From positions 325,659 to 341,635 of the forward strand of contig NQOP01000002.1 of NCBI GenBank assembly GCA_003585845.1: a stretch of DNA of 15,977 bases. Direction: 5' to 3'. The stretch is from Bifidobacteriaceae bacterium NR021. Its GTDB lineage: Bacteria > Actinomycetota > Actinomycetes > Actinomycetales > Bifidobacteriaceae. Numbering within the stretch: position 1 is the stretch's first letter; every line of letters starts with the position of its first letter. A program made the position numbers and the translations under genes. A model generated the notes under the pieces. That model saw only the letters and a program-made list of their open reading frames with translations, searched no databases and was not told the DNA's origin. Below are positions 1-1,267 of this stretch, one piece after another.

Positions 1-1122
1 TGCACCAGCGGCAGCACCGTTAGCATTGCTATTCTGCTGAGCAGAAGCCTTGGTATCCTTACCCTTCTGAGAAGCAGCCTTAGCTTCCTTACCAAACTTA
101 CCGCTCATAGCAGAAGCATAAGCATGCTTCAAACCAGGAACAGCTGGAACCTTTGGATCCAAAGGATCAGAAGTCACAACTGGTGGCAACAAAGCTGGGT
201 TCACACCAGCAGCAACAGCCTCATTGTAAACATCCTTGTAAGCCTGCAAAGCCTTGTTATAAGCAGCTACAGCAGCCAAATCCTTTGCCAAAGCATCATC
301 ATAAGCAGCCTTAGCCTTAGCCAAAGCAATAGTTGCACGCTTAAGATGAGCATCAGCACGATCTGCTGCATCACGCAAACGAGTCTCAGTAGTAGAATCA
401 TTCACGCCAGAAGCCAAGAACGCATTGAGCTTTTGATGAGCAACAGTGGCTGCATTCTCACGTGCATTGTACTCAGCAACAGCAGCAACCAAAGCCTTAT
501 AAGCATCATCGAAATTCTTCTTAGCAACAGCAAGCAAATCATCCTTGTTGTCCAAGTTCATCTTAGCAAGACGAACCTTGTTAATAAGAGCCCTCTTAAC
601 CTCATCCTCAGTTGGACCAACGAAGTCACTAAGATCAGCCTTCTTCTGGTTCAAATCAGCAAGATCAGAAGCCAAGACAGCATTTGCTTGACGCAATTCA
701 GCTTCAGCATCGTCTTTAGCGGTCTTAGCGGCGGTGAGAGCGCTTACAGCTGCGTTATACTCATCCTGAGCAACAGCCACCTTATGCTCTAAAGCTGTTT
801 TAGCCTCGCCCTGAGCAGCCTGAAGTTCAGCTTTAAGATTGTTTAACGTTGTAAAAGCAGCATCCCTGGCAGCAAGCTTAGCGTTGTAATCAGCAAGAGC
901 ATTATTATACTTAGCAAGATAACCATCTTTTTTATCGTTAACAGCCTTGAAAGCTGCATCATAAACGCCCTGAGCATCCTGAACTCGAACAGTGCACCAC
1001 TCAACAGTGTGACCCTTGCATGGGTTGTTATCCTTCACAGCCATTGCTGGGGCAGCAAAAGCGAAACCAGAGAGGAGGGTGGCGCCAGCAGCAAATGCGG
1101 CGATAGCCTTCTTATTCAACAT
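1..1122 (-). CDS. Secreted alanine-rich coiled-coil surface protein, 3' end beyond window
   Basis: The open frame runs from ATG at 1122 to the left edge without a stop, giving 374 residues in view. The start follows an AAAGGAA ribosome site. Residues 1-28 form a signal peptide: Lys-Lys near the start, a hydrophobic Ala/Phe stretch, and a likely cut after Ala-Met-Ala. The mature protein opens with two cysteines about seven residues apart (NPCKGHTVEWC), which could form a disulphide. About 250 residues of Ala/Lys/Glu/Asp-rich heptad-like sequence follow, with repeated K-A-x-Y-(D/N)-x-A patterns, so a long extended coiled coil is likely. Then come a Pro-rich linker (DPLDPKVPAVPGLK) and a Lys/Ser/Gln/Asn/Ala-rich low-complexity tail of the kind that often precedes a cell-wall anchor. 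No LPXTG is visible because the gene is cut. I do not recognise the family. A stalk-like adhesin or wall protein is an inference. Confidence 0.85.
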   Translation of the reverse strand, partial: MLNKKAIAAFAAGATLLSGFAFAAPAMAVKDNNPCKGHTVEWCTVRVQDAQGVYDAAFKAVNDKKDGYLAKYNNALADYNAKLAARDAAFTTLNNLKAELQAAQGEAKTALEHKVAVAQDEYNAAVSALTAAKTAKDDAEAELRQANAVLASDLADLNQKKADLSDFVGPTEDEVKRALINKVRLAKMNLDNKDDLLAVAKKNFDDAYKALVAAVAEYNARENAATVAHQKLNAFLASGVNDSTTETRLRDAADRADAHLKRATIALAKAKAAYDDALAKDLAAVAAYNKALQAYKDVYNEAVAAGVNPALLPPVVTSDPLDPKVPAVPGLKHAYASAMSGKFGKEAKAASQKGKDTKASAQQNSNANGAAAGA

Positions 1123-1144
1123 AATATTTTCCTTTCTTCTTCTC

Positions 1145-1165
1145 CTTCGTGCTAGGTACACGAAG
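1145..1165 (-). other. Hairpin in the 5' leader of the surface-protein gene
   Basis: CTTCGTG and CACGAAG form a perfect 7-bp stem around a 7-nt loop, ending just upstream of the ribosome site. There is no T-run after it on the minus strand, so it is not an intrinsic terminator. A role in mRNA stability or start-site exposure is inferred. Confidence 0.5.
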
Positions 1166-1236
1166 AAAAATTTGCTGTGCAACTCCAAACGGAGCCACAC
1201 ACGCCCGTCAACTAGGAATGACCGGCGTTTGCTATT

Positions 1237-1267
1237 AAGATACCCCCCCCCCGTTCGCAAAAGTCAA
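1237..1267 (-). promoter_or_regulatory. Candidate phase-variable promoter with G10 spacer
   Basis: On the minus strand TTGACT (1267-1262, five of six consensus bases) is followed by a 19-nt spacer and then TATCTT (1242-1237, four of six). The spacer consists of TTTGCGAAC followed by ten uninterrupted G (1252-1243). Two fewer G would give the optimal 17-bp spacing. Transcription would begin near 1230, leaving a leader of about 107 nt before the ATG at 1122. Poly-G spacers of this kind control expression by slipped-strand mispairing in known systems such as Neisseria porA and opc. That this one does so is inferred. Confidence 0.65.

Follow-up and report, generated by a model that had tools for sequence, protein, structure and literature searches.

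A ten-G tract between the -35 and -10 elements of a surface-protein gene from a Gardnerella-like genome: a probable slippage-driven expression dial

In the 15,977-base stretch of DNA analysed here (the window), a run of ten G on the minus strand is probably the length-variable portion of a sigma-70-type promoter spacer and would act as a slippage-driven expression dial resembling that of Neisseria porA; judged from sequence comparison, we give this reading a probability of roughly three in four. The tract lies in the spacer, its flanks are conserved while its length differs between copies, sister promoters without a tract hold their -35 and -10 elements 17 nt apart, and the genes concerned form one family. 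We infer, beyond this, slippage at G10 within a single strain, how strongly and in which direction it affects transcription, and a benefit through surface variation.

The window genome (G000; 1.80 Mb in 9 contigs, 89% complete) is one of 12 genomes, among the 112 searched in its GTDB genus, that have an upstream box in common and that we call the clade genomes. Named Gardnerella species tied to them are G. greenwoodii (G105), G. piotii (G120) and G. swidsinskii (G031), and strains named G. vaginalis are 1500E (G140), NR010 (G090) and GED7760B (G014). The window genome itself, together with G022, G045, G139 and G141, appears to belong with Gardnerella as well, a placement made solely through the common promoter cassette, box and proteins. 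In its rplL region, the window shows 96% identity to G022 and 95% to G031. A DNA pattern scan returned 38 loci, 14 of them named Gardnerella, while we counted the remaining 24, from other organisms, as chance matches; the viral contigs searched gave no match.

The G10 site and its promoter elements

The tract reads as C10 on the plus strand (1243-1252) and as G10 on the minus strand (1252-1243). On the minus strand, TTGACT (1267-1262) is followed by 9 nt, the G10 tract and TATCTT (1242-1237); the site is CTCTTGACTTTTGCGAAC-G10-TATCTTAATAG, and the spacer, TTTGCGAAC+G10, amounts to 19 nt. The sequence-only reading had described a TTGACT and a TATCTT separated by 19 nt, ten of them G, and this was exact when the coordinates were read again. 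Its statement that the tract is the longest homopolymer of the window was likewise borne out, since the next longest are five runs of 7. With a first-order Markov model built on the window, runs of at least 10 are expected 0.0013 times for C and 0.00002 times for G. Between the tract and the ATG of the secreted surface-protein gene lie 120 nt, which places the tract outside the coding sequence, where a change of length would shift no reading frame.

TATCTT agrees with TATAAT at only four of six positions, and a simple promoter scan with spacers restricted to 16-18 nt made no call at the G10 site. The case for a promoter rests on comparison with relatives. In these, the -35 element (1262-1267, minus strand) belongs to a segment, CTTGACTTTT, that is unchanged across 18 aligned tract copies; the tract (1243-1252) is present with 9, 10 or 11 G; and the -10 element (1237-1242) reads TATGTT in many relatives, while TATCTT also occurs in tract-free sisters.

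The same scan did call a site further upstream, TTGAAA, 17 nt and AATAAT at 1391-1363, with 10 of 12 matches. Transcription might thus start at the conserved upstream box, with the tract exerting its effect inside the transcribed leader or as an element of the RNA, and the box is indeed the best conserved block of the upstream alignment. However, AATAAT at this place recurs in L190 only, of 17 other aligned copies, and 0.6 such sites are expected by chance in the scan. Moreover, the tract always stands between TTGACT and TATnTT, and in its tract-free sisters a pair of this kind is found 17 nt apart. We consider an upstream start highly improbable and favour a promoter at the tract.

Two further candidates were rejected. 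A TTG-started extension of the reading frame to 1260 would render the tract intragenic; it was discarded because it is at the ATG that the conserved signal peptide starts, and because the Shine-Dalgarno sequence before this ATG is common to the family. A G-quadruplex at the tract was also dismissed, as one run of G10 is not enough for such a structure within the strand. Upstream of the -35 element, at 1292-1309, lies a perfect 18-bp palindrome, AAAAACATCGATGTTTTT, which is missing from most of the aligned relatives.

A repeated tract promoter and its tract-free sisters

We searched the 112 genomes for copies of the site using a pattern with fixed flanks that let 0-20 positions vary freely behind the first G. 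This returned 28 copies in nine genomes, and none with the reversed control. Although any length up to the limit was allowed, six copies had 9 G, twenty-one had 10 G, one had 11 G, and nothing else was found. The same signal peptide was encoded after all 28. Seven extra copies, in which a base next to the -10 element is altered or an additional one is inserted (L149, L304, L314, L315, L317, L265 and L266), likewise precede this signal peptide, two of them being cut by N soon after the start. In total, 35 cassette copies were collected from 11 of the 12 clade genomes (ten with 9 G, twenty-three with 10 G and two with 11 G); G022, the remaining genome, has a copy broken by N (L044, L332). Spacings thus run from 18 to 20 nt, with the window copy at 19 nt; within the family, 10 G occurs more often than any other length and is no special state.

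Counted across relatives, the tract is not invariant in length: 9 to 11 G occur among copies with the same flanks. This also holds within single genomes, with 9 and 10 G in G009 and 9, 10 and 11 G in G139. Variation of tract length on unchanged flanks, as known from porA, is seen at the level of copies and species. These differences could be assembly or sequencing errors at a site that is truly invariant. Three G9 tracts of the window assembly (L020-L022) are followed immediately by N, which looks as though assembly had broken off at G-tracts, and published work on such tracts warns that their lengths are hard to read (PMC11287997, PMC9187656). Lengths differ, however, in several genomes, one of which is a single contig (G139), and a Sanger test of colonies found genuine 9/10 variation at another Gardnerella tract (PMC11287997). 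An error of this kind seems quite improbable as the source of the differences.

Evidence on the promoter elements came from sister genes. We surveyed 40 upstream regions of signal-peptide relatives, of which 5 carried the cassette, 1 another G-tract, 3 were partly or wholly N and 31 were tract-free; in all 40 we sought the motif TTGANT-N14-23-TA(T/A)(C/G)TT. It occurred at exactly 17 nt in ten of the 31 tract-free regions (L294, L299, L302, L307, L308, L309, L313, L316, L321 and L329), and L026, from outside this set, is an eleventh such sister. In L307, L308, L316, L329, L309 and L026, TATCTT itself stands 17 nt from TTGA(T/G)T. The motif was absent from 18 of the 31 tract-free regions. It was found at other distances in L310 (18 nt, with an interrupted tract), L295 (20 nt) and L312 (16 nt), the latter two having unrelated leaders and being perhaps chance occurrences. 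As nine or ten of the eleven 17-nt sisters have one leader type in common and are probably a single lineage of orthologues plus L309, they are not eleven independent cases.

Because the tract-free sisters keep the pair at 17 nt, TTGACT and TATCTT would be real elements whose distance is set by the tract; these sisters provide the strongest evidence for this view, and they support the earlier proposal that the tract sits inside a promoter spacer. They also imply that 8 G would give the standard spacing, which fits the proposal that loss of two G would bring the window promoter to a 17-bp optimum. No 8-G copy was present among the 35 cassette copies.

The upstream box, CTGGGAAAAATCTTTAAAAACCTTGAAA, adds a further link between the two kinds of promoter. 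It spans 28 nt on the minus strand (1386-1413) and begins 146 nt before the -35 element, measured start to start. With at most one mismatch it occurred at 38 places in 12 of the 112 genomes, the reversed control giving none. Thirty-five of these boxes lie 146-148 nt before a tract promoter and three before tract-free promoters (L329, L026 and L309), all three of which have the -35/-10 pair at 17 nt. The box is possibly a regulator site.

We propose that slipped-strand mispairing at replication would add or remove single G and thereby shift the -35 against the -10 element in 1-bp steps. A tract of 8 G (17 nt) would then correspond to the standard spacing, and 9, 10 and 11 G (18, 19 and 20 nt) are expected to form a graded series of weaker states, among them the window copy with its 19 nt. 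The expected benefit is variation of the cell surface. Some genomes contain up to six tract promoters before sister proteins that have this signal peptide in common, so the cassette copies could switch independently.

Alternatively, the tract could be a fixed spacer structure read by RNA polymerase or a regulator, with one-base differences as tolerated noise and a promoter that is constitutive or otherwise regulated. The tight clustering of length, within one G of 10 in all 35 copies, is consistent with this, as are interrupted G-rich runs before TAT in L310, L318, L330 and L331. Against it, eleven sister promoters manage at 17 nt with no long G run at all, and several unrelated promoters of these genomes keep G-tracts at the same place. 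We regard a fixed structure as unlikely and favour a spacer of changing length.

The gene, its leader and its neighbourhood

The gene behind the promoter (1-1122, minus strand) starts with an ATG at 1122-1120 and contributes 374 codons to the window. The reading frame runs off the window start and then meets a run of N in the assembly, so that the 3' end of the gene lies outside the window and is lost in an assembly gap. Residues 1 to about 28 form a signal peptide, as judged from inspection and conservation; across 36 relatives chosen from 120 listed, 25 of the first 28 positions vary hardly or not at all. The claim that a secreted surface protein with a signal peptide follows the promoter is thereby supported. 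Among 8000 scored candidates, 231 proteins were related at E ≤0.001, and every one of the 120 relatives listed that bears an organism name is from Gardnerella or Bifidobacteriaceae. A protein-level scan of genome contigs confirmed zero relatives.

A full-length relative, P0002, is 89% identical to the window protein. In full-length relatives, P0002 and P0003 among them, the C-terminus consists of LAKTG or LPQSG followed by a hydrophobic stretch and RKIRH, a tail that by eye looks like a sortase signal, and the window protein is probably a wall-anchored surface protein. Searches of Pfam and NCBIfam with the 374 residues seen gave nothing above the cut-off, the best weak Pfam matches being to the KIF21A and golgin models. 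We assign the protein a function only as far as secreted and probably wall-anchored, and judge it helical in character from its residues only. Proteins that share one half can have unlike N-terminal halves (P0002 versus P0007).

If transcription starts about 7 nt after the -10 element, the 5' leader covers 1123-1230 on the minus strand. The RNA folded from 1230 to 1120 (111 nt) is strongly structured (z -5.8, none of 200 shuffles as good). Directly before the ribosome-binding site, whose likely Shine-Dalgarno sequence AAAGGA was read at 1130-1135 (minus strand), a hairpin at 1140-1170 (minus strand) shows compensatory changes across the family: 6 of its 12 predicted pairs have changes on both sides, and five pairs are broken, each in one or two sequences, among 20 of 31 distinct leaders picked by a common ribosome-site motif. 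The hairpin stands before the ribosome site in 28 of these 31 leaders, and L271, L273 and L281 form one of unrelated sequence. Rfam returned no match at the gathering score. The hairpin is a possible RNA control or stability element that would act downstream of the promoter step.

Upstream, rplL (1742-2122, assigned by Pfam) is followed by an intrinsic terminator on the minus strand (1655-1680), an 11-pair stem and a T-run that part the surface-protein gene from the ribosomal genes. Since rplL ends in this strong terminator, the surface-protein gene probably needs a promoter of its own. An intergenic element at 1522-1654 has 28-nt inverted arms (1521-1548 and 1583-1610), with similar stretches elsewhere in the genome at C2:421322, C2:121520 and C2:106867. 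Downstream of and near rplL in G022, G031, G045 and G090, each species has other members of the signal-peptide family, at other distances, as if this were an exchange site.

Upstream box, -35 element, G9-11, -10 element, leader with covarying hairpin and near-identical signal peptide together make up a cassette. Tentatively, and with somewhat less than an even chance of being right, we suggest that this cassette serves across the clade as a combinatorial switchboard, with up to six copies per genome switching independently beside the tract-free 17-nt sisters. If so, a swap of one promoter type for the other would carry a gene, in evolution, from stochastic to constant expression or back, and the proteins behind the cassettes would have exchanged their N-terminal halves.

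Known phase-variable systems and other G-tracts of the clade

The product of porA is an outer-membrane porin from a different phylum, whereas the window gene probably encodes a wall-anchored protein and belongs to a multicopy family with tract-free sisters. In Gardnerella, slippage at NanH3 is reportedly known, going by the title of a reference. In Neisseria meningitidis, the porA poly-G lies between -10 and -35, with an optimum of 17 nt (PMC7864442, citing van der Ende 1995). Here, too, a poly-G tract occupies the promoter spacer of a surface-protein gene, as the site itself and the eleven tract-free sisters at 17 nt indicate, and the likeness to porA that the sequence-only reading had drawn can stand. 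Its parallel with opc falls away: the opc poly-C, also a homopolymer of variable length in the promoter of a surface protein, takes in the -35 itself, with a regulator as the presumed mediator of its effect (PMC7864442), while the promoter described here has a full -35 outside the tract, with TTGACT 9 nt upstream and invariant in 18 copies.

That such a tract would be noteworthy in the Bifidobacteriaceae is less new than had been supposed. Garcia et al. (2024; PMC11287997) reported abundant G/C tracts of at least 8 in Gardnerella, about 70% of them within 300 nt upstream of an open reading frame, many at surface-protein genes, and by Sanger sequencing found one surface-gene tract to vary between 9 and 10 among colonies of one strain. 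These tracts resemble G10 in genus, upstream placement and surface genes, and G10 falls within the same size and distance range. In the main text of that paper, the word 'promoter' appears once, in the reference list, and 'spacer' is absent; we found in it no placement of a tract between -35 and -10 and no account of this promoter family. In Bifidobacterium breve UCC2003, of the same family as the window host, slippage between G10 and G11 controls pilus genes, as followed by maximum depth sequencing (PMC9187656); the tracts studied there are intragenic and act by reading frame, unlike G10, and one sentence mentions additional G-tracts within promoter spacers. In the literature on Gardnerella phase variation and homopolymer tracts, with subscription journals mostly outside the scope of the search, no title or abstract opening described this promoter family. 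What the present analysis adds is the multigene cassette, the tract-free 17-nt sisters, the upstream box, the covarying leader hairpin and further promoters of the same layout. Gardnerella is central to bacterial vaginosis, and differences within its clonal populations are not yet explained (PMC11287997); promoters with a countable tract, together with tract-free sisters as built-in controls, yield countable predictions on which genes switch, at what length and in which direction.

We also surveyed the other G-tracts of these genomes, using 129 tracts from 7 of the 12 clade genomes (G014 not included). Nine tracts with N beside them were dropped, which left 24 cassette tracts and 96 others of at least 8 G; the latter fell into 62 clusters at 60% ungapped flank identity, a crude grouping in which, for example, L166 and L195 remain separate. 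TA followed the tract directly in 32 of the 62 clusters, against 8.6% expected (p ~3e-18), and TTG preceded it by exactly 14 nt in 10 of these 32, against a mean of 1.0 at other offsets (corrected p ~1e-6); kinship among copies and clusters makes the p-values here and below optimistic. Five of the ten (L016, L018, L171, L172 and L213) lead to an open reading frame with a start that by eye is signal-peptide-like. Two relatives of the surface-protein family, L171 (G11, 19 nt) and L305 (G9), carry a G-tract promoter that differs from the cassette. With the cassette left out, the strict pattern TTGA-N10-G8-N0-6-TANNNT gave 15 matches in 11 of the 112 genomes, 12 of them in 8 of the 12 clade genomes and 3 in other genomes of the genus; the reversed control gave 1.

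Sixteen tracts of this other type were longer than the cassette tracts (mean 10.7 versus 9.8, p 0.0017), whereas their total spacing was the same (mean 18.7 versus 18.8 nt, p 0.80), with 19 nt the commonest value in both classes. Different lengths at equal spacing are as expected if spacing is what matters. Given the lack of 8-G copies and the mode of 19 nt, either the assembled genomes mostly represent weak states, or the optimum is longer when the spacer contains a G-run.

Six further loci (L147, L165, L186, L194, L205 and L226), in five genomes, have in common a G-tract of 8-11. At L147, the one locus examined for frame, this tract lies within an open reading frame, and the group is likely a frameshift switch.
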